A stretch of 64,000 bases of DNA from Pseudomonadota bacterium (GTDB lineage Bacteria; Myxococcota_A; UBA796; SXON01): the NCBI GenBank assembly GCA_030685065.1, contig JAUXQH010000029.1, positions 1 to 64,000 of the forward strand, in the 5' to 3' direction. The position numbers and the translations under genes were made by a program. The notes beneath the pieces are model-generated. The model was not told the DNA's origin, made no database searches, and was given only the letters and a program-made list of their open reading frames with translations. Position 1 is the stretch's first letter. Each line of letters starts with the position of its first letter. Below are positions 35,704 to 61,295 of this stretch, in pieces.

Positions 35704-36576
35704 TCAGCCCGTGGCGGCGTAGGCCGGCACCGGCCGATCCTGGTCCCACGCCGGCGCGCCGCCGCCCAGCCGCCGGTACCGGTACGCGCCCCAGATCGCC
35801 GCGCCCAGTGCCCCGGCGTGGATGGAGAGGGGGTCGGCGGCCAGCTCGATCGCGCCGTTGGTCGCCTTCGGGTCGGCGGCGAGCGCGTCGCGGAGGGCGG
35901 CCTCGAGCCCGGCGTCACCCGCCAGGCCCCCGGAGAGGAACACCACGCCCCGCACCTTGAGCGAGCGGAGGAGCCGCGCGAACCGCCCCGCCATGCTGTC
36001 GTGGATGCCGCGGAGGATGTTGGGCGTGTCGATGCCGCGCGAGACCATGTTGATCACGTCGGTCTCCGCGAGCACCGCGCAGATCGAGGACACCGACTCG
36101 GGCTGGCGGGCGCCGAGGGAGAGCGGCCCCACCTCGCTGATCGAGACGCCGAGGTACCGCGAGATGTTCTCCAGGAACTGCCCGGAGCCCGAGGCGCACT
36201 GGCTCGTCATCTTGTAGTCGAGCACGCGGCCGGAGGCGTCCATGGAGACGGCCCGCGTGTGGAGGGCGCCGATGTCGAGCACGGTGCGGGCGCGGGGGTC
36301 GAGGAGCAGGGCGCCGCGGGCGTGGGTGGTCATGCCGTAGAAGTGCCCGGTCGTGAACGGGATCTCCTCGCCTTCGCCGGTGCTCGCGATGTAGTGCACC
36401 TCGTCGACGCCGGACTCCTGCCAAGTGCGCTGGACCACCTCGTCCACGACCGAGGCCACGTCGCGCCGCCGGATGCGGGCGGTGGCGGAGGCCAGCACGC
36501 GGGGTTCGCCGGTGCAGTCGACCACGACGGCCTTGACCGCCCCGGAGCCGACGTCGATGCCTGCCGTGATGGTCAT
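35704..36576 (-). CDS. bcrD: ATP-dependent benzoyl-CoA reductase subunit D (BadG/BcrD-like activase)
   Basis: AGIDVGSGAVKAVVVD; LDYKMTSQCASGSGQFLENISRYLGVSISEVGPLS; BadF/BadG ATPase fold. Confidence 0.88.
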   Translation of the reverse strand: MTITAGIDVGSGAVKAVVVDCTGEPRVLASATARIRRRDVASVVDEVVQRTWQESGVDEVHYIASTGEGEEIPFTTGHFYGMTTHARGALLLDPRARTVLDIGALHTRAVSMDASGRVLDYKMTSQCASGSGQFLENISRYLGVSISEVGPLSLGARQPESVSSICAVLAETDVINMVSRGIDTPNILRGIHDSMAGRFARLLRSLKVRGVVFLSGGLAGDAGLEAALRDALAADPKATNGAIELAADPLSIHAGALGAAIWGAYRYRRLGGGAPAWDQDRPVPAYAATG

Positions 36577-37895
36577 GCCGCACCTCCCGCAACGTTACGG
36601 ACGGACGCCGGCTCGGCGCCCGGATGGTCGACCCGGAGCGCGAAGATCGCGGCGCCGAGGGCCCCGGTGTAGATGCTGGACGCCGAGATGTTCACCGTCC
36701 GCGCGCCGTAGTTCTCCGCCACCAGCTCCCGGAGGGCTCGCACCGCGGCGGGGTTGTTGGCCACCCCGCCCGTGAAGGTGAACTCGTCCGCCACGCCGCC
36801 CGAGCGCGCGAGCAGGCTCATCGCGCGCAGGATCACCGCGCGGTGCAGGCCGGCGAGGATGTCCTCGCGCCGCTCTCCGATGGAGAGGCGCTCGCGCAGC
36901 TCGGCGCCCGCGAACACGGTGCACGTGGAGTTGATGCGCACCCGCCGCTGGCTCTGCTCGGCGAGCGGGCCCAGCTCGTGCAGGCCGATGTTCATCTCGT
37001 CGGCGATGTAGCCGAGGTACCGCCCGCACCCGGCGGCGCAGCGGTCGTTCATCTGGAAGCTGGTGACGATGCCATCCCCGTCGACCTGGATCGCCTTGGT
37101 GTCCTGCCCGCCGATGTCCAGCACCGTGCGCGTGCCGGGGAACATCGCGTGGGCGCCGAGCCCGTGGCAGAGGATCTCGGAGCGGATCCACTCCTTCGGA
37201 AACGGCAGGCGGGCGCGCCCGTAGCCGGTCCCGCAGGTGACGCGGGCGTCCAGGTCCGTGTCGACGGCGGCCTGCACCGCGGCGCGGACATCGGGCGGAT
37301 TGCCGACACGATCGAGGGCCGCGCCGATGTGGTCCTGGAAACCGAGCTCCACCGGCGTGTTCTCGACCTGGATGATGCACTTGTCGTACAGGCCGAGGAG
37401 CAGGTCGAAGCTGGTGTTCTCGCGCCGCGCCACGTCCTCGGCGTGGCGCGAGTACGCCGATCCGGCGACGTCCCGGAAGAAGTCGGAGCGAACTCCGGGG
37501 TTCTGGGCCAGGAAATACTGCTCCTCCTCCGCGCGGACACCAACCACGATCTCCTCGACCGCCGCGTGGGCGCCGGCGCGCAGGGCGGGCACCACGGCCA
37601 GGTCGATCTCGGCGTGGATGCCCGCCTCGAGCCGCACGAGCTGGGCGAGCGTCTGTTCGACGCGGAACGCCCGCAACAGGCGCTCCAGGGCGGGATCGCC
37701 CGCCTGGTCGGCGACCCGCTCGCGGAGGAGGCCGAACCGCGCCGAGACGAACGCCTCGGTGCGCGCCACGTTCGCGGCGAGGTCGTAGTTGGCACGGGAG
37801 TTGGTGATCCCCTGCCCGAGCACGCGCCCGTCCTCCCCGAGCACGACGGCCTTGGTGGTGGTCGACCCGAGATCGACGCCGACGTAACAGTTCAT
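36573..37895 (-). CDS. bcrA: ATP-dependent benzoyl-CoA reductase subunit A (BcrA-like)
   Basis: MNCYVGVDLGSTTTKAVVLGEDG; FQMNDRCAAGCGRYLGYIADEMNIGLHELGPLA; size about 440 aa; 4-nt overlaps with neighbours. Confidence 0.9.
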   Translation of the reverse strand: MNCYVGVDLGSTTTKAVVLGEDGRVLGQGITNSRANYDLAANVARTEAFVSARFGLLRERVADQAGDPALERLLRAFRVEQTLAQLVRLEAGIHAEIDLAVVPALRAGAHAAVEEIVVGVRAEEEQYFLAQNPGVRSDFFRDVAGSAYSRHAEDVARRENTSFDLLLGLYDKCIIQVENTPVELGFQDHIGAALDRVGNPPDVRAAVQAAVDTDLDARVTCGTGYGRARLPFPKEWIRSEILCHGLGAHAMFPGTRTVLDIGGQDTKAIQVDGDGIVTSFQMNDRCAAGCGRYLGYIADEMNIGLHELGPLAEQSQRRVRINSTCTVFAGAELRERLSIGERREDILAGLHRAVILRAMSLLARSGGVADEFTFTGGVANNPAAVRALRELVAENYGARTVNISASSIYTGALGAAIFALRVDHPGAEPASVRNVAGGAA

Positions 37896-39199
37896 GGGGT
37901 GCTCCCGGGATCGGCGGGGATCGCCGGGGCGGGCGGTCGGGCCGCGGCGCGCCGCCGCTCACGGAGCATCTGGAAGTAGCTCTCCAAGCGGTTCTTGATG
38001 TTGGCCGCCGAGAAGTAGCGGGGATCCACCAGGTCGCTCTCGATGAACGCCCCCGGGATGCCGGTGCGCCTCTCGACCTCGCGCAGGATGAGCAGCTGCC
38101 CCGCCGAGAAGCTGTTGCAGCTCTTCACCGAGTTGATGACGAACCCGTCCGCCGCGTACTCCTCGATGTACTCGACGAGCATGTCGATGCGGTCGGGCAG
38201 GCTGTGGTTGGTGTAGCAGCCGCTGCAGTAGTCGCAGAGCGTCCCCAGCGGATCGGTGGGGTCGTGGCGGAAGCCGAAGTCGTAGGTCCCGCCGACCTTG
38301 GTGTAGGTGCTCGCCACCACCACGGCGCCCTCGTCGCTGAACATCTGCCAGAATTGGTTGAAGCTGGTCCAATTCGGCGGCCCCTCGATCACGAGGCGGA
38401 AGTGCTGAGCGTCGAGGCGGCCGCTCGGGGTCTCGGGGCCCTGGTTGGCCGCGATGCGCTCGTCGACCTCCTCCCGCAGCGCTGCGTAGTAGTCCGCGCC
38501 CTCCTGGGTGCCGCGGAACGCGCTGAACATCGGGCCGATGTAGTAGACGCCGCCGAAGTAGCTGTCGATCGGGCTCGGCGTCCGCTTGGCCGCGTGCAGC
38601 ACGTAGACGAGGTCCTCCTCCGCGCGCGCCGAGAGGCGCAACATCTCGCGCAGCTTCTCCTCGTCGTAGGGCCGCCCGGTCACCTTCTCCAGCGCCGGGA
38701 TGACGTCCTCGCGGAGCTGGCGGACCATGTAGGCGCGCTGATCGGCGGTGATCTGCCCGTCTCCCTGGTAGGGCACCTGGAGGAACACCGTCGGGCAGTC
38801 GTAGTGCTCGCGGAGCAGCTCGAACCACTTCATGAAGGTGTAGCAGCCGGTGTAGGACAGCAGCAGCAGGTCCGGCGGGGGCAGGCGGGTGCCCGTGGGG
38901 CCGATGTTGCCCTGGAGCATCATCCCGATGTCCGCCTTGACGTAGGTGCACACGTCGGCGCTGTGGCCGGCCTTCTCCGCCTCGGCGATGTAGCCACGCG
39001 ACAGGCCGCGCATCCCCGACTGGAGCGCGTTGATCTCGGGGAGCACCGGCAGGGCCCCGAAGCTGCGGATCAGCTCGGTGAGGTTGCCGGGGACGAAGGT
39101 GTACACGACCTTCTCGCCCGTCTGCGGGGCCGCCTCCAGCCGCTCGAAGTGGTCGCCGATCATGTCCTTCTGGAGGATCATGGAGCGGTCCTTGCTCAT
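37892..39199 (-). CDS. bcrB: ATP-dependent benzoyl-CoA reductase subunit B (BcrB-like)
   Basis: HgdB-like fold; SYTGCYTFMKWFELLREHYDCP; CDYCSGCYTNHSLPDRIDMLVEYI. Confidence 0.87.
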   Translation of the reverse strand: MSKDRSMILQKDMIGDHFERLEAAPQTGEKVVYTFVPGNLTELIRSFGALPVLPEINALQSGMRGLSRGYIAEAEKAGHSADVCTYVKADIGMMLQGNIGPTGTRLPPPDLLLLSYTGCYTFMKWFELLREHYDCPTVFLQVPYQGDGQITADQRAYMVRQLREDVIPALEKVTGRPYDEEKLREMLRLSARAEEDLVYVLHAAKRTPSPIDSYFGGVYYIGPMFSAFRGTQEGADYYAALREEVDERIAANQGPETPSGRLDAQHFRLVIEGPPNWTSFNQFWQMFSDEGAVVVASTYTKVGGTYDFGFRHDPTDPLGTLCDYCSGCYTNHSLPDRIDMLVEYIEEYAADGFVINSVKSCNSFSAGQLLILREVERRTGIPGAFIESDLVDPRYFSAANIKNRLESYFQMLRERRRAAARPPAPAIPADPGSTP

Positions 39200-40491
39200 G
39201 GGGAACCTCCGTCGGCCGCGGTGGGAGAGTGGGGACCAGCGCGCGCGACGTCGGGGGCCTCGTCCCGGGTGCCGATCCAGAGCTTGATCGAGTCGGAGAA
39301 GGTCCCCGCCTGCTCGCGGTACTGCTGGAACTGACCGGTGTTCTCGGCGTACTCGAAGGCGATGCACGGGAGCTTCGCGGCCTCCGCGCCAGCGCGGAGC
39401 ATGGGGCGGTCCAGGAGCGCCGGATCGCAGAAGGACGGCGCGGCAAAGATGACGCCGTCCGCCCCGGCCGCGGCGACCTGCTCGGGGACGAGGCGCCGCT
39501 TTCCGCCCGCGTCCGGCTCGTAGTACACGCTCGTCTTGCGGTGGCGGAACAACGTGGCGTGCGCGAGGCGGGCGAGCGGGCCGGCGTCGGGCATCCCGTC
39601 GACCGGGGCGCCGTCGGGGCAGCCGGTCGGCCCGAGCACCAGGCGGTTGCCGATGAGCAGATCGTCGTCCACGACGTAACAGCCGGCGCGTTCGATGGTG
39701 CGGATGAGGCCGAGCGGAGGCTGCTCGCAGAACGCCCCGACGAGGATCACGCGGGCGTTGTCCCGGGCGTGCGCGGGGTCGGCCTCGGCCAGCCGCAGGT
39801 AGGCGCGGGCGCGGGGCAGCCAGTCCTCCACCGGGCACACCTCGCCAGCGCGGAGGAGGAGGTACAGCTCCTCCGTCGGCACCTTCCACGGGGCCATGCG
39901 CCGGAGGGTGTAGAGGGCCTCGACGACGCCGCGCATCTCGTCGTAGAGCGCGATCGAAGCCTCGAGGTGGGCGTCGGTGACCACGCGCCCGGTGATGCGG
40001 GAGAGGTCCGCGAGGATGGTGCGGAGCTCCTCCACCCAGAACCCCATGGCCCGCTCGGGCCGGTTCACCTGGGGAAGGTCGACGTAGTGCACGTAGGTGC
40101 CGGGCTCGAGCAGCTGCCACATGCCCGACAGGTTGCGGATCACGTCGCACGTGCTCGGGAACAACATCGCCGAGAGGCACCTCAGCCGGCCGGAGAGCCC
40201 GAGCTCGACCACGGACCGGGGCAGGTGGCAGATGTAGCTCTGGTAGTAGGCGTCGCCGCGGATGATCTCCAGGTTCCCGCCGCCGTGGACGCCCACCGGC
40301 AACATCCCCGCGGCGTGGATGAGCTCGCGCGGCACATAGACCGGCAGGTACCCGCAGGCCTTGCGCCCGGGCGCCGCGTCCAGCCACGCCCGGACGACGC
40401 CGAGGTCGAGATCCTCGTACAGGCCGCGGGCCCAGGCGACGATCTCGGCGCGCGAGGAGCCGCCGTCGCGGCGGGAGGGCTCGGGGGTCAT
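39196..40491 (-). CDS. bcrC: ATP-dependent benzoyl-CoA reductase subunit C (BcrC-like)
   Basis: YVPRELIHAAGMLPVGVHGGG; YICHLPRSVVELGL; MLFPSTCDVIRNLSGMW; VGAFCEQPPLGLIRTIE. Confidence 0.87.
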   Translation of the reverse strand: MTPEPSRRDGGSSRAEIVAWARGLYEDLDLGVVRAWLDAAPGRKACGYLPVYVPRELIHAAGMLPVGVHGGGNLEIIRGDAYYQSYICHLPRSVVELGLSGRLRCLSAMLFPSTCDVIRNLSGMWQLLEPGTYVHYVDLPQVNRPERAMGFWVEELRTILADLSRITGRVVTDAHLEASIALYDEMRGVVEALYTLRRMAPWKVPTEELYLLLRAGEVCPVEDWLPRARAYLRLAEADPAHARDNARVILVGAFCEQPPLGLIRTIERAGCYVVDDDLLIGNRLVLGPTGCPDGAPVDGMPDAGPLARLAHATLFRHRKTSVYYEPDAGGKRRLVPEQVAAAGADGVIFAAPSFCDPALLDRPMLRAGAEAAKLPCIAFEYAENTGQFQQYREQAGTFSDSIKLWIGTRDEAPDVARAGPHSPTAADGGSP

Positions 40492-41270
40492 GCGGTCCTC
40501 CAGGTGGGTTGGCGCCGCTCCAGGAAGGCCCGCAGGCCCTCCTCCGGGTCCGGGTGCGCCATCAGGTCCGTGAGGTAGAGCTGCTCCAGCGCCGGGAGGT
40601 CCTCGTGGAGCCCACGCAGCAGCGGCCGCCGGGCCGCGCGCCAGGCCATCCGCAGCGCGTGCGGCGACAGCGGCGCGAGGGCGCGCTCGTACCACCCGAC
40701 GATGGACGCCTCGGGGTCCTCGGTGCACGCCTCGGCGAGCCCCATCGCCACCGCGTCGGCCCCGCGCACGGCATCGCCCGTGGTCACCAGCCGGGTGGCC
40801 TTCGCGCCGCCGACGCGCCAACGGAGCCCCAGCGCGGCGATCGGCGGGAACACGCCGAGCTTGACCTCGGGCACGCCGAGGGAGGCGTCGGGGGTCACGT
40901 GGACGGTGCCGCACCAGAGCGCCAGCTCGGCCCCGCCGCCGAGGCAGCGCCCCCGCACCGCGGCCGCCGTGGGGAGCCCGGTCTCCTCGAGCTCGACGAA
41001 CAGCTGGTGGAAGGCGGGGAGCATCGCGTCGACCCGCCCGGGGAGGTGCTCCTCGACGGAGGCCCCGTAGCAGAAGTGGGCGCCCTGGCCCTGGAACAAC
41101 ACGAGGCGCACGCGCGGATCGGCGGCGACGCGGCCCACCGCATCGCGCAGCGCGAGGACGGCGTCGGTGTCGAGCAGGTTGGCGGGCGGCCGCGCGAGGA
41201 TCAGGCGGACGAGCCCGCCGTCGTGGGAGGTGTGGACCTCGACCGGAGGCGCCTTCGCGGGGGCGCTCAC
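40488..41270 (-). CDS. dch: Enoyl-CoA hydratase family; probable cyclohexa-1,5-diene-1-carbonyl-CoA hydratase (Dch)
   Basis: Crotonase fold (VRLILARPPANLLD, AVRGRCLGGGAELALWC, PEVKLGVFPP); context of bcr genes; GTG start overlapping the upstream gene. Confidence 0.75.
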   Translation of the reverse strand: MSAPAKAPPVEVHTSHDGGLVRLILARPPANLLDTDAVLALRDAVGRVAADPRVRLVLFQGQGAHFCYGASVEEHLPGRVDAMLPAFHQLFVELEETGLPTAAAVRGRCLGGGAELALWCGTVHVTPDASLGVPEVKLGVFPPIAALGLRWRVGGAKATRLVTTGDAVRGADAVAMGLAEACTEDPEASIVGWYERALAPLSPHALRMAWRAARRPLLRGLHEDLPALEQLYLTDLMAHPDPEEGLRAFLERRQPTWRTA

Positions 41271-42364
41271 GCCGACACCGACGGGACGAGCACGATGCGC
41301 CGGGTGGCGCGGTGCGCGTGGACGTCGGCGAAGGCGGTCGCGATGTCGGCGAGCGGTCGGAGCTCCACGCGGCTGGCGATGTCGATGCGCCCGTCCAGCG
41401 CCATCTGCACCACCTCCGGGTAGTACGCGGGGTCGCACCCCCAGTTGCCGAGGGCTCGCGCGTCGAACGCCATGAGGTTCGACAGGCGCACCTCGAGGCG
41501 GTCGAGGGTGAAGCCGACCACGCACAGGGTCGCGCCGTGCACGAGGAGGTCGAAGGCGAGCGACTGGCCCGCCGCGGTTCCCGAGCACTCGAGGATGGTC
41601 CAGCGCGTGGTGGGGACACCGGCGGCCCGACACGCCTCGACCACCTGCTTGCGGAGCTCGCGCGACGCCCGCCCCGTCGCGTCCACCGTCAACTCCACCC
41701 CGAGGGCGGCGGCCTCGGCGAGCCGCGCCGAGGACACGTCGATCCCGACGACCCACGCCCCGAGGGCGCGGGCGATCTGGGCGGCGTAGCCGCCGACGCC
41801 GCCGAGGCCGATGACCACCGCCACGTCCCCGGCGCGGAGGCCGGCGCGCCGGATCGCCTGGAAGGGCGTGGACACCGCGTCGGCCACGACCGCGAGGTGG
41901 CGGAGCGAGACGCCCGCGGCGCCGAGCGGCGCGTCGGGATCCCCCGTGAAGCCGGGCACGACGCACAGCCCGTGGGCCGGCACGCGCACGTGGGTGGCGA
42001 AGCCGCCGTCCTGGTCGTTCCCCGGCATGATCTGGCGCTTGCAGATCATCGGGTGCCCGGCGCGACAGTCCGCGCAGGCGCCGCAGGGGATCACCGCGGG
42101 CACCACCACCCCGGCGCCGAGCAGGTGGGTCGCGGCAGCGCCCGCCTCGCGGACCACCCCCGCGATCTCGTGCCCGAGGATGAGCGGCAGGGCGTGGCGG
42201 GTGCGCACGCCGTCGTAGAGGAAGCCGAGGTCGGTGTGACAGAGGCCGCAGCCCGCCACCTCCACCAGCACCTCGTCTTCCGCGAGCGGGCCCCCGTCGC
42301 GCTCCGTCGGGCGCAGCGGGGCGCCGACCTCGACCAGCTCGTAGCCGCGCAGGCCGCCGGTCAC
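41267..42364 (-). CDS. had: Zinc-dependent alcohol dehydrogenase; probable 6-hydroxycyclohex-1-ene-1-carbonyl-CoA dehydrogenase (Had)
   Basis: GCGLCHTDLGFLYDGVRTRHALPLILGHEIAGVV; CGACADCRAGHPMICKRQIMPGND; GLGGVGGYAAQIA; bcr context. Confidence 0.8.
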   Translation of the reverse strand: MTGGLRGYELVEVGAPLRPTERDGGPLAEDEVLVEVAGCGLCHTDLGFLYDGVRTRHALPLILGHEIAGVVREAGAAATHLLGAGVVVPAVIPCGACADCRAGHPMICKRQIMPGNDQDGGFATHVRVPAHGLCVVPGFTGDPDAPLGAAGVSLRHLAVVADAVSTPFQAIRRAGLRAGDVAVVIGLGGVGGYAAQIARALGAWVVGIDVSSARLAEAAALGVELTVDATGRASRELRKQVVEACRAAGVPTTRWTILECSGTAAGQSLAFDLLVHGATLCVVGFTLDRLEVRLSNLMAFDARALGNWGCDPAYYPEVVQMALDGRIDIASRVELRPLADIATAFADVHAHRATRRIVLVPSVSA

Positions 42365-43212
42365 GTGCCGAGCCCGAACACACGGCTGGCGTTTCCGGAG
42401 AGGAGGAGGTCGGCGCGGTCGGGCGGCACGCCGAGGCGCCCGAAGTCGTCGAGGTAGCGGGCCCAGTCCAGTCCGTTGGACCCGAACATCACCTTCTCGC
42501 TGCCGGTCCGTGACTTCATGAACCCGACCAGCGCGGGCGAGAGGTACCGCGGCATCCAGGCGCTGGTGGAGAGGTAGACGTTGGGCCACTTCGACGCGAC
42601 GGCGATCGCCTCGTCGACCCACGGGAAGCCGGTGTGCGTGCCGACGAGCACGAGGTCGGGGAAGTCGCACGCGATGCGGTCGAGCTGCATCGGCCGCCCG
42701 TGCTCGCTCGGCATCGCCTCCAGCACGTGCCCGATCTGCATCGTGACCGGGATCCCCAGGCCCTCGCACATGGCGTAGAGCGGGTAGAGCTTCCGATGGT
42801 CGAGCCCGATGTCGTAGCCGTATATGTGTAGGTAGATCCCCTTGAAGCCGTGCTCGCGCACGTCGTGCGCCACCTTGTCCAGGCTCTTGCGGATGTGGAG
42901 CGGGTCGTAGCTGGCGAGCCCGTAGACCCGGCCGGGGAACCGCCGGGACAGCTCGGCGATGCGGTCGGTCATGTCGAGCGCGAAGCGCTCCTGCCGCGTG
43001 TAGGACCAGGCCAGCAGGTCCGTGGCGAGCACCGTGCGCACCCCGGCGGCGTCCATGGCCGCGATCAGGTCCTCGGCGGTGGCGTAGCCCTCGCCCCAGG
43101 CCTGCTCGACCTTGCACTTGAGCTCACCGGGGGCGTTCGTGGCCTGGACCCAGCTGTCCTTCCACTCCCGCAGCAGGAGGGGAAAAAGCGTGTCGACAGC
43201 GGCGGATGCCAT
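42361..43212 (-). CDS. Amidohydrolase-2 (metal-dependent TIM-barrel) family protein
   Basis: HDVREHGFKGIYLHIYGYDIGLDHRKLYPLYAMCEGLGIPVTMQIGH...LVLVGTHTGFPWVDEAI...MFGSNGLDWARYLDDF...LLLSGNASRVF. Confidence 0.85.
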   Translation of the reverse strand: MASAAVDTLFPLLLREWKDSWVQATNAPGELKCKVEQAWGEGYATAEDLIAAMDAAGVRTVLATDLLAWSYTRQERFALDMTDRIAELSRRFPGRVYGLASYDPLHIRKSLDKVAHDVREHGFKGIYLHIYGYDIGLDHRKLYPLYAMCEGLGIPVTMQIGHVLEAMPSEHGRPMQLDRIACDFPDLVLVGTHTGFPWVDEAIAVASKWPNVYLSTSAWMPRYLSPALVGFMKSRTGSEKVMFGSNGLDWARYLDDFGRLGVPPDRADLLLSGNASRVFGLGT

Positions 43213-43290
43213 GAGGGGGCTCCAGTTCGGGGTGCCGGGCACCCCGAGGGCGGGGGGTGCCGATCCCTACCGCCGAGCCGCGCTCCCGGT

Positions 43291-43310
43291 CATCGGTCGA
43301 ACGTCCGATG
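43291..43310. promoter_or_regulatory. Imperfect 20-bp palindrome CATCGGTCGAACGTCCGATG, putative operator upstream of the bcr operon
   Basis: 9-bp arms with one mismatch and AA centre; 79 bp upstream of the first gene; same sequence family as 46040-46059. Confidence 0.65.
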
Positions 43311-43325
43311 GTCCGACGCCGACAA

Positions 43326-43868
43326 TCAGCGAAAGCGTGCCGCCATCGCTTGCCATCCCGGGTCCCCGAGCACCTGGTTCGCCATCGGGTAGAGCATCCC
43401 CTCCTCCTTCGCGTTGTGCTGCTGGATCAGCATCATCAGCGTGTCGCCCTGCTCCTCGAGCGCGGTGCGCTCCTCCTCGGCGGCGCAGCGCGCCATCTCG
43501 TCGAGGATGGCGCGCATGTGCGCGTGCTCCCCCCGCATGACCTCGGTGGGCCCGAAGCCGTGGTGCCCCGTGGCGTCCTCGAAGGCGGGGAAGAGCACCT
43601 GCTCCTCCCAGTCGAGGTGCCGGCGCAGCGCCGCGTCGAAGCGGCGGGCGGCATCGACCGCCCCGGCGAGGTCGGGGGCGGACTCGACCTCGGCCCAGAC
43701 GGCGTCGATGTCCCGGTGGTCCGCGGTGAAGAACGCCACCAGCCCCACGTCGGTCGACGCGGCGGGCCGACCGGCCGGGGCCGGGGAGCCGGGGGGTGAC
43801 GCGGCAGCGGCGCGCCCGGGGGGCACGGCGGCGGCGCGGGAACCGAGGAGGCGGGAGATCAGGCTCAT
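43326..43868 (-). CDS. Hemerythrin HHE-domain protein
   Basis: FFTADHRDIDAVW, RHLDWEEQVLFPAFED, MRGEHAHMRAILDEM, QQHNAKEEGMLYPMAN. Confidence 0.88.
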   Translation of the reverse strand: MSLISRLLGSRAAAVPPGRAAAASPPGSPAPAGRPAASTDVGLVAFFTADHRDIDAVWAEVESAPDLAGAVDAARRFDAALRRHLDWEEQVLFPAFEDATGHHGFGPTEVMRGEHAHMRAILDEMARCAAEEERTALEEQGDTLMMLIQQHNAKEEGMLYPMANQVLGDPGWQAMAARFR

Positions 43869-43894
43869 GGAGACGCTCCGGGGGAACGGGGGTG

Positions 43895-43912
43895 TGTTAT
43901 CAAGCGATAACA
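43895..43912. promoter_or_regulatory. Perfect inverted repeat TGTTATC-AAGC-GATAACA, putative TetR operator
   Basis: 7-bp perfect arms in the divergent hemerythrin/TetR intergenic region, abutting the TetR start codon. Confidence 0.75.
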
Positions 43913-44766
43913 TGACGCGCCGCGAAGAGATTGTCACCGCCACGTTGGAGCTGCTCGCCACGACGCCGCTCGACCGGGTCACCACGCGGGGCATCGCCGC
44001 GCGGGTGGGCATCACGCAGCCGGCGCTGTTCCGGCACTTCGAGGGGCGCGACGCGATCGTGGAGGCCGCCGTGACGTGGACGCGCGGCGAGCTCGAGGGC
44101 GTGGCGGCCGCGGTGCTGTCGGCGCCGGCGCCGCCGCTCGTGCGCGCCGAGGCGCTGGCGCGCGCCCTCGGCCATCACGTGACCCGCTGGCCCGGCGTGC
44201 CGCGGCTGCTCTTCGAGGACGTGGCGCGCGGCGAGGACACCGCCTGGAGCGCGGCGCTCCGGGGCCTGCAACAGGCGCAGCGGGCCCTCGTCGCGGGGCT
44301 CGTCCGGGAGGCCGTTGCGCGCGGCGAGGCGCCCGCCGCGATCGACCCGGACCGCGCCGGCGCCTTGTTCGTGGCCGGGATCCAGGGCGTGCTCGTCCAG
44401 TGGCTGGTCGGGGGCGCCACCGGCACGCCCGACGTCCTCGGCTTCGTGGAGGTGTGGCGCGCGGGCGTCGTCGCCGGTCTCCCGCGCTCCCCCGTCGGCG
44501 AGGACCCGGGGGCGTCCGCGCCGGTGCGCGCGTCGGAGGCGGATGTGTGGATCGACGCCACCGCGATCCTGCGGGGCGGGGCCGATCCGCTCTCGGCGGT
44601 GCTCGCCGCGGCGGACCGCGTGGCCCCGGGCGGCGCCCTCCGCGTCGTCGCCCCGTTCGCGCCCATGCCGCTCGGGGCGCTCCTGCGGGGCCGCGGCTGG
44701 GCGGTCGAGATCGCGTGCGCCACCGCGGGGGGCCCCTACACCCTCGTCGCGCGGCGGCCGGCGTGA
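43912..44766 (+). CDS. TetR-family regulator fused to C-terminal DUF2249/TusA-like domain
   Basis: MTRREEIVTATLELLATTPLDRVTTRGIAARVGITQPALFRHFEGRDAIV; C-term DVWIDATAILRGGADPLSAVLAAADRVAPGGALRVVAPFAPMPLGALLRGRGW. Confidence 0.82.
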   Translation: MTRREEIVTATLELLATTPLDRVTTRGIAARVGITQPALFRHFEGRDAIVEAAVTWTRGELEGVAAAVLSAPAPPLVRAEALARALGHHVTRWPGVPRLLFEDVARGEDTAWSAALRGLQQAQRALVAGLVREAVARGEAPAAIDPDRAGALFVAGIQGVLVQWLVGGATGTPDVLGFVEVWRAGVVAGLPRSPVGEDPGASAPVRASEADVWIDATAILRGGADPLSAVLAAADRVAPGGALRVVAPFAPMPLGALLRGRGWAVEIACATAGGPYTLVARRPA

Positions 44767-46028
44767 GCGCCGCCCTCCCCTCCTACGGCGCCCCGCGCCT
44801 CGACCAGGGGCCCCCGCTCGCGATCCCGGCGAGCTTCTTCCTCACCGCGCCGGTCGCCATCGTCGCGGCCGGGGTGCTCGTGCTCGTGTACGGCGGCGCG
44901 CTCCAGAGCCGCTGGACCGGCCCCGCCTTCGCCGTGGCGCACCTCGGCACGCTCGGCCTCCTCGGCGCGACCATGCTGGGCGCGCTCTACCAGCTCATCC
45001 CGGTGCTCGGGGGCACGCCGGTGCCGGGGGTGCGCCTCGCCCACGCCGTGCACGCGCTGTTCGTGGGCGGGCTCGCGGCGCTGGTGGCGCGGTTCTGCGG
45101 GGCGCCGCCTCCGTTCGGGTGGGGCGGCGCGGCGGCGTTGACCGGCGCGATCACGCTGTTCGCCGGGCCGGTGGCGGTGGCGCTCGCCCGGGCGCCGTCC
45201 CGCACCTGGCCCGTGGTCGGGATGCGGGCCGCGGCGCTCGCCCTCGTCGTCGCGCTCCTCCTCGGCCTGCGGTTGGCCGTCCCGCCGCTCTCGCCGCTGC
45301 GGCCGCTCTGGATCCAGGTCCACCTGACCGTCGGGCTCCTCGGCTGGGTGGGCGGGCTGGTCGCCGCCGTCGCGTGGCAGCTCGTGCCGATGTTCTACCT
45401 CGTCCCGGCCTTCGATCGGCGCCTTCCCGCCGTCGTCCTCGCGCTCCAGGTGGTCGGGGTCGTCGGCCCGCTCGGGGTGCTCGCGCTGGCCGAGGCGGGG
45501 GTCGACGTGGGGAGCGGGGCGGCGCTCGTCGCCGCGGCGCCGGCGGCCCTCGCGGTGTGGGGGATCGCGCCCGCGGCGCTCCTGCACGGGCTGGTCCGGC
45601 GAAAGCGCGCGGGGGCCGACGGCAGCGTGCGGTTCTGGTTCGCGGCGCTGCCCGTCGCGCTCGCGCTCGGTCCGCTGGCGCTCGCCGCGTGGGCCCTGCC
45701 GGACCCGCGGTGGGCGCTCGCCTTCGGATGGCTGGCGATCTGGGGGTGGGCCGGCACGATCGTGCACGGCATGCTCACGCGCATCGTCCCGTTCCTCACG
45801 TGGTTCCACCGGTTCTCGCCGCTGCTCGGCAAGCGACGCGTCCCCGCGATGCGCGCGCTCTACCCGGACGTGCGCGTGCGCATCGGCCTCGCCCTGCACG
45901 TCGGCACCACGCTCGCGGGGCTCGTCGCCATCCTCCTCCGCGTCGCGTGGCCCGCGGGCCTGGGCCTCGTCGTCACGGGCGGCTGGTTGGGGTGGCACCT
46001 CGTCGCCACGTTGCGCCGGAGGCCGTGA
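44763..46028 (+). CDS. Polytopic membrane protein (possibly heme-copper-oxidase-subunit-I/NnrS-like)
   Basis: About 11-12 hydrophobic segments; conserved-looking AHLGTLGLLGATMLGALYQLIPVLGG, IQVHLTVGLLGW, IVHGMLTRIVPFLTWFH; GTGA overlap with the TetR gene. Confidence 0.65.
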   Translation: MSAALPSYGAPRLDQGPPLAIPASFFLTAPVAIVAAGVLVLVYGGALQSRWTGPAFAVAHLGTLGLLGATMLGALYQLIPVLGGTPVPGVRLAHAVHALFVGGLAALVARFCGAPPPFGWGGAAALTGAITLFAGPVAVALARAPSRTWPVVGMRAAALALVVALLLGLRLAVPPLSPLRPLWIQVHLTVGLLGWVGGLVAAVAWQLVPMFYLVPAFDRRLPAVVLALQVVGVVGPLGVLALAEAGVDVGSGAALVAAAPAALAVWGIAPAALLHGLVRRKRAGADGSVRFWFAALPVALALGPLALAAWALPDPRWALAFGWLAIWGWAGTIVHGMLTRIVPFLTWFHRFSPLLGKRRVPAMRALYPDVRVRIGLALHVGTTLAGLVAILLRVAWPAGLGLVVTGGWLGWHLVATLRRRP

Positions 46029-46039
46029 GGCCGACGCGC

Positions 46040-46059
46040 CATCGGTCGAACGACCGATG
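46040..46059. promoter_or_regulatory. Perfect 20-bp palindrome CATCGGTCG-AA-CGACCGATG, putative operator of the 11-gene operon
   Basis: Perfect 9-bp arms; 36 bp upstream of the first gene; near-identical to 43291-43310. Confidence 0.75.
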
Positions 46060-46095
46060 TGGACCCCGGGCTCCCATCGATAGCATGGCGTCATC

Positions 46096-47544
46096 ATGTT
46101 GCTCCGTTCCCTCATGGCGGTGGCCTGCAGCGGGCCGCCAGCGGAGGAGGCCCGCGAGGAATTCTCACGGGTGGGCGGAGAGATCGCGGCCGGGCCTCTC
46201 CTGTCCGCGTGGAGCGACGGAGACGTTCTGATCATGACGGGCGGCCACCCCGGCGGGACGGAGGGGGTGCTCGCCCGCTACGACGGCGAGGCCGTTTCGG
46301 TCGAGGCGGGGGTGGCCGACCGGACCTTGTGGTGGATCGCCGGCCCGCGCGCCGGGGAGTGGTACGCGGTCGGTGAAGGCGGTCGGATCGTCCACGAGAC
46401 CGATGGCGTGCGGGTGCGCGAGGATGTCCCGACCGACGCGACGCTGTTCGGCGTGTGGGCGGACGAGGACGTGGCGTGGGCGGTGGGCGGGACGGTCGGC
46501 CCCGAGGGGACCACCGGCGAGATCTGGACGCGGCGGGACGGGATGTGGTCGGCGTTCGCGACGAACCTGCCAGGCGCGGTCTTCAAGGTGTGGGACGGGT
46601 GGTTCGTCGGGGACGGGCACGCGTGGCGGCTCGTCGACGACGCGCTGGTAGAAGCGAGCCCGACGGGGCGCCTGGTCACCGTGCGCGGGCGCGCGGACGA
46701 CGACGTATGGGCGGTCGGCGGGCTCGGCGCGCCGCTGGTGACCCACTGGGACGGCGCGGCCTGGTCCGAGGTCGACGCCGCGGCGCTGGGCCAGCCGCTC
46801 TCCGGCCTGTGGACGGGCGCGGGCGAGGACGTCTACGTGGCGGGCAACTTCGGCACCGCCGCCATCCTCCGGGATGACACGTGGGAGGTGCCGGAGGTGC
46901 CCCCCACGGACGCGCACCTCCACGCGGTGTGGCGCCACGGCGACGCTGTCTACTGGGTGGGAGGTGACCTCTACGGCGATGGCGATGGGACCGGCGTCCT
47001 CGTCCGCTACGGCCTCCCGCGCGCGTCGGTCGCCGCGGCGCCAGCCGTGCCCCGCGTACCTACCGGGCCACGGTTCCCCGGCATCTCCGTCGCCCACGCC
47101 CGCGAGCCGCTCCGCGCCGGAGCGCCTGCCCCCCCGTTCACCCTGCCCGACCTCGCCGGCGCGGCGCATGACCTCGCGACGCTCCGCGGCCGGGTGGTGG
47201 TCGTGAACTTCTGGGCGAGCTGGTGCGCCCCCTGCCTGGCCGAGCTGCCCCAGCTCGACGCGCTCCACACCCGCCTCGATCCGCTCGGCGCCACGGTCCT
47301 CGCCGTCACCATCGACCGCCAGGCCGGCCCGGCCCTGGGCGTCGTCCGGCGGCTCGGGTTGGGGATGCCCGTCCGCCTGGACGCGCGGGGAGAGGTGGCC
47401 ACGGCATGGGCCCCTCCCGCGTTGCCGACGACCTACCTGCTCGACCGGAGCGGCGTTGTCGCCGGGATGTGGTCGCGGGCGCTCGGGGCGCCGGAGCTGG
47501 CCGCCATCGAGGCCGACGTGCGCGCGCTCCTGGGGCGGCCATGA
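46096..47544 (+). CDS. Beta-propeller-like lipoprotein fused to C-terminal TlpA/ResA-type thioredoxin
   Basis: MLLRSLMAVACSGPP; N-terminal repeats (VWADEDVAWAVGGTVG, ADDDVWAVGGLGAPLVTHWDGAAWSEV); C-term VVVVNFWASWCAPCLAELPQLDAL...LPTTYLLDRSG. Confidence 0.85.
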   Translation: MLLRSLMAVACSGPPAEEAREEFSRVGGEIAAGPLLSAWSDGDVLIMTGGHPGGTEGVLARYDGEAVSVEAGVADRTLWWIAGPRAGEWYAVGEGGRIVHETDGVRVREDVPTDATLFGVWADEDVAWAVGGTVGPEGTTGEIWTRRDGMWSAFATNLPGAVFKVWDGWFVGDGHAWRLVDDALVEASPTGRLVTVRGRADDDVWAVGGLGAPLVTHWDGAAWSEVDAAALGQPLSGLWTGAGEDVYVAGNFGTAAILRDDTWEVPEVPPTDAHLHAVWRHGDAVYWVGGDLYGDGDGTGVLVRYGLPRASVAAAPAVPRVPTGPRFPGISVAHAREPLRAGAPAPPFTLPDLAGAAHDLATLRGRVVVVNFWASWCAPCLAELPQLDALHTRLDPLGATVLAVTIDRQAGPALGVVRRLGLGMPVRLDARGEVATAWAPPALPTTYLLDRSGVVAGMWSRALGAPELAAIEADVRALLGRP

Positions 47545-50174
47545 TCCTGCTGCTCGGGTGCGCACCGATGCCGACGCCGCGCGCGCGCTTCGACGCGGAG
47601 GTCGTCCCCGTGCTCGAGCGCGGATGCACCGCGTCCACCTGCCACGGCACGACCGACGTTCCGCCCGCAGGGCTCACCTTCACCACCGACGGCGACGGCA
47701 CCCTCGTCGACCTCGACGCCGCCTACGCCACCGCGAAGTCGCGCATCGACACGGCGGAGGATCCCGCGTTCTCCACGCTGCTCCGCAAGACGCTCGCGAC
47801 GACGTGGGGCGGGCTTCCGCACGCCGCGGGGGCACAGTTTCCCTCTCCGGAGGATCCGGCCTACCTCGCCATCGCGGCGTGGATCGCCGTGGAGACCGGC
47901 GGAGGCGAGGACCCCGCGCCGCTCTCGCCCGCCGAGCAGCGCTACGCCGACACGGTCCAGCCCGAGCTCGCCGCGCGCGGCTGCTTCGCGGGCGGCTGCC
48001 ACGGCATCGAGGGGGCGGTCCCGTTCCGCCTCGATCCGGGGGTCGGCGGCGCCTTCCCCGTCGCCGCGACCCGCGCCAACTACGACGCGGCGCGCGCGAT
48101 GCTCTCGCTCGACGGGGACGCCTCCCAATCGCGGCTGCTCCGCAAGGCGCTGCCGCTGTGGGCCGGCGGCATCCTGCACAAGGGCGGCAACACCGGCCTC
48201 CTCGACGGCCCCGACGACCCCGCGGTCGCCGCCATCGAGGCCTGGGCGTGCGCCGAGCGCGAGGAGCGCCTGGGGGAGGGCTGCGCGCCGCGCATGGACG
48301 GGTTCGTCTACGTGCGCGGCCCCGTCGTGCCCGCAGATGCGTTCGATCTGGACGTCTACCTCCCCGGCTCCGACCTGTGGTGGTGGCGGGACGGCGCGTC
48401 GGAGGACCTCACCTCGGCGCTCCACGCCACCCCCGCCGACGTGCGCGATCCCGCGATCGACCCGACCGGCACGCACCTCCTCTTCGCGATGCGGACCGAC
48501 GCCGACGCGGGCCACGCCCTCTACGAGATGGACCTCGCCACGCGGATCGCCCGCCGCCTCACCGAGCCCGGCGCCGCCACCGACCGCGCCCCCACCTACG
48601 GGCCCGACGGCCACGTGTGGTTCAGCTCGACGCGCGGCGGCTCGCTCGACGACGCGGGGCTCCGGCCGGACGCGGAGCTCTACGAGCTCGACCCCGACAG
48701 CGGCACGATCACCCGCCGCACCTGGACCCCGCACGTGGAGATCCGGCCGGTGTTCCTCGTCCACGGCAACGAGAACGGCGGCGAGGTCGCGTTCACCGCG
48801 CTCCGCGAGGCCGACCCCCGCCAGCGCCGCGCCCACCCCTTCCGCTTTCCGCCCGACCTGGCGACCGAGTACCACCAACACTTCGGCATCACGCCGACGG
48901 AGACCCTCGTGGACGACCTGCGCGAGCTCCCCGACGGCCGCTACGTGGCGCTCTTCGGCGCGCTCGACCAGGGCTGGGAGGGCGGGAGCCTCGCCATTAT
49001 CGACCGCAACTTCGGGCCCGAGATCACCGATGGCCGCGCCGCGTCGATCCCCAACTATCTAGACCCGGTGACCCGCCTCGCCGACGGCCGTCGCTGGCGC
49101 GATCCGGCGCCGCTGCCGGACGGCACGCTGCTCGCCGCGGTGAGCGACGGCGGGCGCTTCCGCATCGTCTCGCTCGGCTTCGCCGAGTCGGTCCGCGGCG
49201 ACGGCCCCGCCATCGTGTCCGAGGAGGGGCTGGCCGAGGACCCCGAGCTCTCCGTCTACGACCCCGAGCCCGTCGTCGTCCGCGAGCCCGCGCCGATGGC
49301 GGCGGCCTCCTCGTGGAACCCCGAGTCGACCACCGGCCTGCTCCACCACCAGGGGCTCCCGGTCATCGACGCGCTCCTCTCGTCCCTCTCGCCCGCCGGC
49401 GCGCGGCCGGTGCGCGACGACATCGTGGGCGTGCGGCTCATCGAGGGGCTCCCACGCACGGATGCCTTCACCGGCATCCCCGCGCGCACCCCCACGCGCG
49501 TGCTCGGCGAGCTCCCCCTCGCGGCCGACGGGACCTTCCAGGCCGAGCTCCCCGCCGGGGTCCCGTTCCGTATCCAGGGCCTCGACGCGGCGGGACGCGC
49601 CGTCGGCGCCCAGCACAACCGCTGGTTCTACGTCGCCCCGGGGCAGACGCTCTCCCAGGGCGTGCAGGCCGCGGATCCCGACGTCTACGGCGCCGCCTGC
49701 GCCGCCTGCCACGGCGCCCTCGACGGCGACCCCGACCACGCCTTCGGCGCCCCCGACGTGCTCACCACCGCGTCGGTCACCCTCTCCCGCTACCAGGACG
49801 GCGACCCCGCGCGCCCCCTGGAGCCGCCGCGGCTCGGCGACGCGACGCGCATCGAGGTCGATTGGCATCGCGACGTGCGCCCGCTCCTCGACGGCTGCGC
49901 CGGCTGCCACGACGCGACCCTCCCACCGCGGCTCGACGACACCCCGACCGAGCGCTACGACCAAGGCTACGAGGCCCTCCTCGACGGATGGGTGGAGCCG
50001 GGGAGCGCGCGGGGGAGCCGCCTGGTCGAGGTGCTCACCGGCGAGGCGCTCGACGCCCCCGGCGAGCCGCCCGACGCGCTCGGCGCGGGGGCCCACGGGG
50101 GCCTCGACGCCGACGCGCTGCGGACAATCGCGCGGTGGATCGACCTGGGCGCGTCCTGGGTGGGGACGCCATGA
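47541..50174 (+). CDS. Multiheme c-type cytochrome lipoprotein (4 motifs, two CX4CH) with propeller-like middle
   Basis: CTASTCH, CFAGGCH, CAACH, CAGCH; MILLLGCAPMP start; ATGA overlap. Confidence 0.85.
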   Translation: MILLLGCAPMPTPRARFDAEVVPVLERGCTASTCHGTTDVPPAGLTFTTDGDGTLVDLDAAYATAKSRIDTAEDPAFSTLLRKTLATTWGGLPHAAGAQFPSPEDPAYLAIAAWIAVETGGGEDPAPLSPAEQRYADTVQPELAARGCFAGGCHGIEGAVPFRLDPGVGGAFPVAATRANYDAARAMLSLDGDASQSRLLRKALPLWAGGILHKGGNTGLLDGPDDPAVAAIEAWACAEREERLGEGCAPRMDGFVYVRGPVVPADAFDLDVYLPGSDLWWWRDGASEDLTSALHATPADVRDPAIDPTGTHLLFAMRTDADAGHALYEMDLATRIARRLTEPGAATDRAPTYGPDGHVWFSSTRGGSLDDAGLRPDAELYELDPDSGTITRRTWTPHVEIRPVFLVHGNENGGEVAFTALREADPRQRRAHPFRFPPDLATEYHQHFGITPTETLVDDLRELPDGRYVALFGALDQGWEGGSLAIIDRNFGPEITDGRAASIPNYLDPVTRLADGRRWRDPAPLPDGTLLAAVSDGGRFRIVSLGFAESVRGDGPAIVSEEGLAEDPELSVYDPEPVVVREPAPMAAASSWNPESTTGLLHHQGLPVIDALLSSLSPAGARPVRDDIVGVRLIEGLPRTDAFTGIPARTPTRVLGELPLAADGTFQAELPAGVPFRIQGLDAAGRAVGAQHNRWFYVAPGQTLSQGVQAADPDVYGAACAACHGALDGDPDHAFGAPDVLTTASVTLSRYQDGDPARPLEPPRLGDATRIEVDWHRDVRPLLDGCAGCHDATLPPRLDDTPTERYDQGYEALLDGWVEPGSARGSRLVEVLTGEALDAPGEPPDALGAGAHGGLDADALRTIARWIDLGASWVGTP

Positions 50175-50554
50175 CGTGGCTCCTCGCGCTCCTAGATGCG
50201 TGCGTGGACGACCCGGGCGCGGCGGCACTGCCGGCCGTCGACACCGGCGCCTTCTACGCCGAGGTGGAGCCCATCCTCGGGGCGCGCTGCGGCAACCCAG
50301 CCTGCCACGGCAGCGCCGCCCGCCCCTTCGAGGTCTACGCGGTCCACCTGCACCGCGCCGATCCCGACGCCACCTGGTCCGACGCGCCGCTGACCGCCGC
50401 CGAGCACGCCCGCGACCTCGCGCGCGCCCGGAGCTTCTTGCCCGATGCGCTGCTGCGCAAGCCGATCGACGCGGTGGACCACGGGGGCGGCGCGGTCTGG
50501 GAGGACACGGGCGAGGCCGAGTGGCAGGCCATCCGCGACTGGGCCGAGCAATGA
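50171..50554 (+). CDS. Small c-type cytochrome-like protein (CX4CH)
   Basis: AEVEPILGARCGNPACHGSAARPFEVYAV; ATGA overlap. Confidence 0.75.
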   Translation: MTWLLALLDACVDDPGAAALPAVDTGAFYAEVEPILGARCGNPACHGSAARPFEVYAVHLHRADPDATWSDAPLTAAEHARDLARARSFLPDALLRKPIDAVDHGGGAVWEDTGEAEWQAIRDWAEQ

Positions 50555-50736
50555 TCCTGCTGCTGCTCCTCGCCTGCGTGACGCTCCAGCCCTGGGAGCG
50601 CGTCGACCTGATGACCCGCGTCATGGCGGATCCCTTCGACCCGACCGAGGCGGCGTTCGACGCCCACGTGCGGGAGACGCGCGAGGGGATGACCGGCGCC
50701 GACGCGGCCGGAGGTGCCGCGTGTGGCTGCAATTGA
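50551..50736 (+). CDS. DUF4266-like short lipoprotein ending GAACGCN
   Basis: MILLLLLACVTLQPWERVDLMTRVMADPFDPTEAAFDAHVRETREGMTGADAAGGAACGCN; size, PWER motif and CGCN C-terminus. Confidence 0.78.
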   Translation: MILLLLLACVTLQPWERVDLMTRVMADPFDPTEAAFDAHVRETREGMTGADAAGGAACGCN

Positions 50737-51773
50737 GCGTGGCCCATGCCCAGGAGGCCGCCGCCCGGGTCGACACCTACGCGGACGGGTGGATCGTGGT
50801 CGTGTCGCCCGCCGCGAACGTGTCCGTGCCGCTGACGAAGACCTGGCGCGTCGGGGGCGCGTGGACCGCCGACATCGTCAGCGGCGCGACGCCGCTGCTG
50901 CGCGCCGACGTCGTGTCGTCGGCCACCCACTTCGAGGACACGCGGCACGGCGTCGACCTCTCCGCGACAGCCGCGCCGACCGGCGGCTGGAAGCTGACCG
51001 GCGCGCTGTCCGCGAGCGTCGAGCCGGACCACACCGCGGGCACCGCGGGCGTGCTCGTGGACACGGAGGCCTTCGGGCGGATGGTCACGCTCTCTGCCGG
51101 CTGGCACTCGACGGCCTCGCGCGCCGGCCGCGCCGATGACGCGGCCTATGCCTCCCATGCGTCCGACCACGCGCTGGACCTGCGCTGGACGCAGATCCTC
51201 GACCGGGCCACGGTCGCGACCGCGCGCTTGAGCGCCGAGGCCAGCGTCTGCGGCACGGACCTCGGCTGTCAGGCGAACCCCTACCGGCTCGTTGCGGTCG
51301 ACGATCTCGTGCTCTCGGAGCGCCACCCCGACCGTCGCGGCCGCCTCGCCGGGTCGCTCCGGGTCTCCCGCGCCTGCGGTCCGTCCACCGCGCTCCACGG
51401 CGGGATCCGCGCCTACACCGACACCTGGCGCGTCACGGGCGGGGGCGCGGACCTCTCGGCCGCGCGGTCGTTCCTCGGCGAGCGGGTCGTGGTCGGCGCG
51501 ACGGGACGCCTCGGTCTGCAGGGCGCCGCGTCGTTCTGGCGAGGATCCTACGGGGGGACGCCCGCGTGGCGGACCGCGGACCCCGAGCTCGCCGGCTTCA
51601 CCCTCGCGGCGGCGGGCGGGCGGGCGGAGTGGGCGGCGTTCGGCGTGGGGCCGTCGTCCCGTCTCGCGCTGTCGGTCCGCGTCGAGCGCCAATGGTACCG
51701 CTATCCCGACGACATCGCCGTGCCGCGGCGGGCCGCCTGGGTCATCGGGGGAGGGCTCGATGTGGATTATTGA
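50721..51773 (+). CDS. DUF3570-like outer-membrane beta-barrel protein with two ApbE-type flavinylation-like motifs
   Basis: GTG start; exported-like N-term; YADGWIVVVSPAANVSVPLTKTWRVGGAWTADIVSGATPLLRADVVSSATHFEDTRHG; alternating beta-strand C-term ending GGGLDVDY. Confidence 0.72.
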   Translation: MWLQLSVAHAQEAAARVDTYADGWIVVVSPAANVSVPLTKTWRVGGAWTADIVSGATPLLRADVVSSATHFEDTRHGVDLSATAAPTGGWKLTGALSASVEPDHTAGTAGVLVDTEAFGRMVTLSAGWHSTASRAGRADDAAYASHASDHALDLRWTQILDRATVATARLSAEASVCGTDLGCQANPYRLVAVDDLVLSERHPDRRGRLAGSLRVSRACGPSTALHGGIRAYTDTWRVTGGGADLSAARSFLGERVVVGATGRLGLQGAASFWRGSYGGTPAWRTADPELAGFTLAAAGGRAEWAAFGVGPSSRLALSVRVERQWYRYPDDIAVPRRAAWVIGGGLDVDY

Positions 51774-52245
51774 GCTCCTGGCCTGCACCGGCGCGGGGCC
51801 CGCCGAGCCCGTTTCCGACGCCGAGGCCGAGCCCTTCGCCTGCGAGCTGGGGGTGCTGCGGGAGGGGAGCTTCGTGCCGCTGGCGGAGGCGGAGACCGTC
51901 GAGCTGCATCTCGGCTTCCAGGGCTTCCTCCTGCTCGCGCTCCACGCGCGGGCGGAGGACCCGCCGACCGAGGTGGACGCCACGGTGGGGGTCACCGTCG
52001 ACGGCCTCGATCCCTACAGCGTCTCCCAGCCGCGGGTCGCCTTCACCGACGGCGTGACCGACGAGCTCCTCGTCTTCCTCACCAGCAACTACGCCTCCTG
52101 GTACGAGGGCCGCACCGCCTCGCTCGGGCTGCGCCTGCGATCGGCGGACCGCGTGTGTGTCACCGAGGGCGCGGCGGTGCTCGTGGACGAGGACCCGTGC
52201 ATCCACACCGGCGGCGAGCCCGTGTGCCCGGACACCGGCGAATGA
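51760..52245 (+). CDS. Small lipoprotein, unknown function
   Basis: MWIIELLACTGAGP; 14-nt overlap with upstream gene; ATGA overlap with the next. Confidence 0.65.
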   Translation: MWIIELLACTGAGPAEPVSDAEAEPFACELGVLREGSFVPLAEAETVELHLGFQGFLLLALHARAEDPPTEVDATVGVTVDGLDPYSVSQPRVAFTDGVTDELLVFLTSNYASWYEGRTASLGLRLRSADRVCVTEGAAVLVDEDPCIHTGGEPVCPDTGE

Positions 52246-54584: not shown

Positions 54585-55474
54585 CCTACGACGCGCCGAT
54601 CATGCACACCCAGATCGAGGTGCGCCTCGACGACGACGAACGCGCCGCCGCCGACGCCGCCGCGGTCTTCACCGTGTTCCGCGAGGTCGAGTCCACCGCG
54701 AACGAGTGGCTCCCCGGCTCGGCGCTCGCGGCGGTCAACGCCGGCGCCGGGGGGCCGACCGTGCCGATCCCCGACGATCTGCGCGCGCTCCTGCGCGAGG
54801 GCCTCGACGCGAGCGCGCTCACCGGCGGCGCCTTCGACGTGACCTGGGCGGCGTTGTGGGGCCTCTGGGACTGGGATCGCCCCGTGCTGCCGGCGCAGGA
54901 GGCCGTGGCGGATCGGCTCCCCCACATCGGGTGGGCGCGCGTCGAGCTGACCGAGGCGGGGGTCCGCCTCCCCGACGCGGAGATGCGCATCGGGCTCGGC
55001 GGCATCGCGAAGGGCTGGGCGCTCGACCGGGCCGCCGAGGTGCTGCGCGCGCGCGGCCGGGACCACTTCCTGCTGTCCGCTGGGGGCCAGGTCTACGCCG
55101 CCGGCGACTACACCGTCGGGATCCGCGATCCGCGCGGCGACGCCCCCTTCGCCACCCTCGCCGTCCACGATGCCTCCGTCAGCACCAGCGGCGACTACGA
55201 GCGCTTCTTCCTCGTCGACGCGGTGCGCTATCACCACCTCCTCGACCCGCGGACCGGGTGGCCCGCGCGCGGTCTGCGCAGCGCCACGGTGATCTGCGCC
55301 GAGGCGACCCTCGCGGATGCCCTCTCCACCGCCGTGATGGTCCTCGGGCCGGAGCGGGGCCTCGCGCTCGCCGAGGACCTGCCGGGGGTGGAGGCGGTCC
55401 TCGTGGGAGAGGACGGCCGGGTCTACGTCACGAGCGCGGCGCCCCTCGTCGCGCTCCGCCGGGCGACGCCATGA
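54581..55474 (+). CDS. apbE: FAD:protein FMN transferase
   Basis: VESTANEWLPGSALAAVNAGAG; GGAFDVTWAALWGLWDW; RIGLGGIAKGWALDRAAEVLRARGRDHFLLSAGGQVYAAG; VSTSGDYERFF; HHLLDPRTGWPA. Confidence 0.9.
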   Translation: MTYDAPIMHTQIEVRLDDDERAAADAAAVFTVFREVESTANEWLPGSALAAVNAGAGGPTVPIPDDLRALLREGLDASALTGGAFDVTWAALWGLWDWDRPVLPAQEAVADRLPHIGWARVELTEAGVRLPDAEMRIGLGGIAKGWALDRAAEVLRARGRDHFLLSAGGQVYAAGDYTVGIRDPRGDAPFATLAVHDASVSTSGDYERFFLVDAVRYHHLLDPRTGWPARGLRSATVICAEATLADALSTAVMVLGPERGLALAEDLPGVEAVLVGEDGRVYVTSAAPLVALRRATP

Positions 55475-61142: not shown

Positions 61143-61295
61143 CCTGCGATGGCCACACCTCTATCCGCGCCCCTGACCGTCCCGGTATCGGCCGAACGGC
61201 GGGCGAACGCGATGGGATGGCGATATGCCACCATGCTCGGGAAGCTCGAGTCCGGGGCCGTCCACGGTCAATGGCACACCCCGAAAGGATCACCG

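Follow-up and report, generated by a model that had tools for sequence, protein, structure and literature searches.

A conserved palindrome before the benzoyl-CoA reductase and redox operons of an uncultured member of the Myxococcota: a candidate site for a four-cysteine GerE-type activator

Introduction

Several described systems come close to the one considered here. The PimM-type PAS-LuxR activators of Streptomyces act from a palindromic site in the −35 region (PMC9774167), and NreB/NreC of Staphylococcus pairs a four-cysteine, PAS-type [4Fe-4S] oxygen sensor with a LuxR-type DNA-binding protein in nitrate respiration (PMC4601167, PMC8139620). At the Azoarcus bzd promoter, AcpR, of the FNR family, activates the benzoyl-CoA genes without oxygen from −41.5, over the −35 box (PMC6678401). 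For genes of NO and nitrate respiration, the regulators already described include DNR, NnrR, HcpR, NorR, NsrR and NarL (PMC1274295), of which NsrR reads NO (PMC2577008). In the literature searched we found nothing on how benzoyl-CoA reductase is regulated in Myxococcota, nor any paper about GerE-type Fe-S sensors.

The DNA analysed here (the window) is the first 64,000 nucleotides of contig JAUXQH010000029.1 (assembly GCA_030685065.1). A first-pass annotation of its sequence had noticed one palindrome before two operons that flank a hemerythrin gene, a TetR gene and a membrane protein gene, and had proposed that a single dimeric repressor controls both.

Results

Two copies of one palindrome in the window

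The sites and the promoter elements associated with them are:

46040..46059, + strand: palindromic site (putative activator site) before the redox operon; perfect dyad, PWM score 27.2, −10-like TA at the conserved offset
46081..46086, + strand: −10-like TAGCAT, 22 bases after the palindrome, an offset conserved across sites
43291..43310, − strand: palindromic site (putative activator site) before the benzoyl-CoA reductase (bcr) operon; one broken pair, PWM score 22.2
43264..43269, − strand: −10-like TAGGGA towards bcr; its TA has the conserved offset of +22
61186..61205, − strand: tentative, weak third site before the fatty-acyl-AMP ligase gene 59268–61133; PWM score 12.0, TA near the right offset; candidate only
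43895..43912, no strand: separate dyad TGTTATC-AAGC-GATAACA, overlapping the TetR-DUF2249 gene start; candidate TetR operator

Both copies are present as annotated, 46040–46059 reading CATCGGTCG-AA-CGACCGATG and 43291–43310 reading CATCGGTCG-AA-CGTCCGATG. Both are intergenic, with the stop codon of the preceding gene 11 and 15 bp before them; the ATG at 46096 is 36 bp downstream of the former, and the start of the amidohydrolase gene (43212, − strand) is 78 bp from the latter. The hemerythrin gene (43326–43868) and bcr share a strand, so the genes on either side of the 43291 site are in tandem.

The window palindromes are not chance occurrences. They are its only matches at up to three mismatches, against 0.15 expected from shuffles, and the genome-wide search that the first-pass annotation had called for gave only three exact copies of the W form, CATCGGWCGNNCGWCCGATG, in the 8.09-Mb genome, namely the two in the window and one on contig C50 (C50:26487), while a control pattern gave 0 exact matches in the same genome. 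Across all GTDB species genomes (264 Gb) CATCGGWCGNNCGWCCGATG occurs exactly in 64 stretches, so that about 0.002 would be expected per 8 Mb. A looser genome-wide pattern (N at the W positions, one mismatch) was discarded as too noisy.

The flanking operons

The genes around the two sites are:

42361..43212, − strand: amidohydrolase (PF04909) with which the bcr operon begins; its homologues hold the same first position in the bcr operons of G029, G042 and G051
41267..42364, − strand: Had, 6-hydroxycyclohex-1-ene-1-carbonyl-CoA dehydrogenase; TIGR03201 above cut-off
40488..41270, − strand: Dch-like dienoyl-CoA hydratase; best match TIGR03189, below cut-off
35704..40491, − strand: BcrC, BcrB, BcrA and BcrD, ATP-dependent benzoyl-CoA reductase (TIGR02263, TIGR02260, TIGR02259, TIGR02261)
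43326..43868, − strand: hemerythrin gene between both sites; PF01814
43912..44767, + strand: TetR-DUF2249 regulator; PF00440 and PF10006
44763..46028, + strand: polytopic membrane protein of an unnamed family; no Pfam or NCBIfam match
46096..59238, + strand: redox operon, encoding a thioredoxin-like lipoprotein, an HZS_alpha-like protein, a cytochrome c/beta-propeller protein, ApbE and others

By these protein-family models the identification of an ATP-dependent benzoyl-CoA reductase (BcrCBAD) is solid, BcrC, BcrB and BcrD scoring above the NCBIfam cut-offs and BcrA just below. Bcr operons headed by the amidohydrolase (that of the window and those at L151, L152 and L029) are without the ring-opening hydratase Oah (TIGR03200), and those of G021, G022, G017, G018, G002, G003, G013 and G010 have Oah and are without the amidohydrolase; a non-orthologous replacement of the ring-cleaving step is possible. 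The second gene of the redox operon was found in six genomes of the order only, all of which have Had. The product of 47541–50174, within the same operon, matches the middle domain of hydrazine synthase alpha at 30 bits, and a stronger match (51 bits) is encoded at L359:1820-5092 in G210, adjoining a regulator gene and a site. Homologues of the membrane protein are encoded near bcr in G042 and G038 and near the four-cysteine regulator described below in G081, a locus that also has a hemerythrin gene nearby.

Recurrence of the site in relatives

Relatives' loci were fetched by protein homology, and genes were called, and their starts placed, by a simple home-made GC-frame caller; the relatives are non-independent samples. 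Sites lie 25–80 bp upstream of the target operons or genes. They precede bcr operons (G029, G042 and G022, also G051 and G021), redox operons (G021, G022, G018 and G010) and an operon for a fatty-acyl-AMP ligase, NAD-epimerase, ACP, acyl-CoA dehydrogenase, B12-radical-SAM protein and regulator (G051, G029, G017 and G010, with weaker forms in G042, G037, G021 and G022). This ligase operon (L031:3444-9723 and homologues) is conserved and found nearly always in bcr-bearing genomes; the fatty-acyl-AMP ligase of the window was dropped as an orthologue of the operon ligases, its identity to any of them being only 32–34%. In G038 and G028 the regulator's own gene is preceded by the site.

When the 150 bp upstream of each gene were searched with a consensus drawn from the window alone and at most four mismatches, a site was found for 14 of 54 target genes compared with 8 of 457 other genes of the same loci (P=7e-10). 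Moreover, a de novo palindromic EM motif search of the homology-chosen promoters converged from unrelated seeds on caTCGGTCg..cGACCGAtg. The proposal that one dyad-binding regulator serves the bcr and redox operons is thus borne out by recurrence upstream of several homologous operons of both kinds, whose lack of the motif would have spoken against it. The regulon is also much larger than these two operons.

In particular, boxC (benzoyl-CoA dihydrolase, TIGR03222 above cut-off) is preceded by a site in G038 and G051 (L284:6951 and L301:1431), and by a weaker one in G042, so that the aerobic benzoyl-CoA pathway, to which this gene belongs, may share its switch with the anaerobic route. A BzdR/BoxR-like gene stands beside the site in G038. 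Further sites precede radical-SAM genes (G018, G051), and HxsB-like maturase and chemotaxis genes (G010), and in G029 a composite site, with its TA at +22, stands before a gene for a hemerythrin-type protein of 492 aa (L361:1-1476). No site was found before boxC of most genomes, including boxC of genomes without the regulator, nor upstream of bcr in the regulator-less G043 and G034; the bcr operons of G010, G017, G018, G002 and G038 have no good site despite the presence of the regulator.

On contig C50 of the window's own genome, two regulator paralogues, one with the full cysteine set and one with a shifted third cysteine (C50:25961), adjoin a copper nitrite reductase gene (TIGR02376 above cut-off) and the third exact site. 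A further paralogue (C50:7805) is without two of the cysteines. Further up, the variant dyad CCTCCGTCGATCGACGGATC stands before a NapA-like operon (just below cut-off). These nitrite and nitrate genes, with the NO reductase targets described below, suggest a regulon for nitrate, NO or anaerobiosis of which bcr and the redox operon form one branch.

A four-cysteine GerE protein accompanies the site

The largest gene family common to the loci is a LuxR/GerE-type protein of about 165 aa, the only regulator conserved beside these operons. In many genomes its gene is the last of the ligase operon, and the regulator genes often carry or adjoin a site. The C-terminal GerE helix–turn–helix (PF00196) was matched in 17/17 members, the best PDB match being the DNA-binding domain of NarL; PAS models match the N-terminal domain in 2/17 members (E<0.01), and four cysteines are conserved in 43, 40, 39 and 40 of 43 sequences. 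Within the order the regulator is found together with Had (14/16, P=4e-8) and likewise with the epimerase (14/15, P=5e-9), and near-exact sites were found in 7/20 genomes with the regulator versus 1/47 without it (P=6e-4).

An independent test used 20 loci picked by regulator similarity alone, most of them from other classes of the phylum; the PWM had been trained on part of the order set, and the other-class set was not used in training. These loci held 9 sites above 15 bits, all intergenic, the maximum in reversed sequence being 12.3, and 136 kb from regulator-less genomes held 0 sites. Most of the sites precede quinol-type NO reductases (NorB_cytochrome_c-like and COX1) and ferredoxins, and an HZS_alpha protein gene is also among the targets. 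The full composite of site and TA stands before the NorB gene of G125, and no site was found before the NorB genes of G002 and G003.

Considering that all of this co-occurrence is correlative, the activator could be real and yet be another regulator, for example of the FNR/CRP or Rrf2 type, found with the four-cysteine GerE protein by chance. An Rrf2-like gene does adjoin the site in G064, and another lies near the site in G305. We regard this as unlikely: in gene-family clustering the Rrf2 candidate, which we rejected, occurs at one locus only and is not common to the others, the CRP/FNR site consensus (TTGAT-N4-ATCAA) differs from the dyad described here, and in distant classes GerE similarity alone led to sites near GerE genes.

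The palindrome is phased to a −10-like element

When the sites were aligned on the palindrome, a T at +22 and an A at +23 stood out from a background of about 30% AT. With near-duplicates counted once, 19/40 sites have TA at exactly +22, compared with a background rate of 1.1% (P~1e-26), and 25/40 have it at 21–23; in both window sites it is at +22. Read as positions −12/−11 of a −10 box, this TA places the palindrome at about −53 to −34, with its centre at about −43 to −43.5, over the −35 region; no −35 consensus is seen at the sites, and the palindrome occupies the place of that box. By position the palindrome therefore fits a class II-type activator site, which has its centre near −42 and keeps a constant spacing to the −10 box.

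This layout bears on the repressor of the first-pass annotation. A perfect, intergenic dyad near start codons, with a TetR gene between its two copies, does look like a dimeric repressor's operator, and the local TetR-DUF2249 might be that repressor. A repressor would not, however, need fixed phasing to the −10 box, and the constant distance to TA and the replaced −35 box favour an activator. The TetR gene, divergent from the hemerythrin gene, carries at its start the different dyad at 43895–43912, and it is the GerE protein, coded elsewhere, whose family goes with the motif across the phylum. Both the repressor and its proposed identity were accordingly set aside, and we consider them distinctly improbable.

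We also considered that the palindromes might be gene-end hairpins in RNA or transcription terminators, given that both window copies lie 11–15 bp past a stop codon. Only 9/80 consensus-departing pairs still pair, however, and thus RNA pairing is not under selection; 12/33 sites have a divergent upstream neighbour, and a hairpin would leave the −10 spacing unexplained. We give this explanation almost no weight.

Discussion

We suggest that the palindrome is likely to be the site of a one-component, FNR/DNR-like anaerobic activator responding to oxygen or NO, most likely the four-cysteine GerE protein. This activator, of about 165 aa, would combine a short, weakly PAS-like N-terminal domain carrying the cysteines with a LuxR/GerE helix–turn–helix, and we infer from the genomic association that it binds the site. 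A dimer of class II type would sit on the palindrome from about −53 to −34, over the missing −35 box; because of this overlap, the polymerase could use the −10 element, which lies 22 bases further on, only with the activator bound. The GerE dimer, held on the dyad core TCGGTCG-NN-CGACCGA, would thereby recruit the polymerase.

The cysteines probably bind an iron–sulfur cluster, by analogy with known sensors, and its loss or change with oxygen or NO may set DNA binding. We rate oxygen as the sensed signal at about even; NO is a reasonable possibility of somewhat lower standing, and another signal or a structural metal appears improbable. Oxygen depletion would then lead to joint activation of benzoyl-CoA reduction, the redox operon, radical-SAM lipid or natural-product genes, and N-oxide respiration. 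More tentatively, it is conceivable, though short of an even prospect, that one-component iron–sulfur GerE activators replace FNR/DNR phylum-wide, sensing oxygen or NO directly and governing nitrate and NO reduction, and that in this order they have recruited bcr and the aerobic box pathway, so that one switch serves both modes of benzoyl-CoA metabolism.

The analysis offers a testable operator, a promoter geometry and a candidate regulator for anaerobic life in large-genome uncultured bacteria, and would tie the respiration of nitrate and NO to the anaerobic reduction of benzoyl-CoA. A four-cysteine domain fused to GerE is a sensor layout of which we found no description in the literature searched.

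Comparison with known systems

The PimM type is like the proposed regulator in being an activator with an N-terminal sensor and a LuxR/GerE helix–turn–helix in one component and a palindromic site in the −35 region (PMC9774167). It differs in its site, CTVGGGAWWTCCCBAG compared with caTCGGTCg..cGACCGAtg, and in its control of polyketide clusters, unlike the four cysteines and anaerobic-respiration regulon seen here. NreB/NreC consists of two proteins with phosphotransfer, whereas here the sensor and the helix–turn–helix form one polypeptide with no kinase or receiver; four conserved cysteines are found here as in NreB/FNR-like Fe-S sensors, although the cysteine spacing differs from that of NreB. 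DNR, NnrR, HcpR, NorR, NsrR and NarL do not match the proposed regulator in domain composition or in binding site, and of the domains NarL shares only the helix–turn–helix; NarL sites have a 7-2-7 layout, as does the core TCGGTCG-NN-CGACCGA. Finally, AcpR has the CRP/FNR fold and site in contrast to the GerE fold here, and the class II position of the two is similar.
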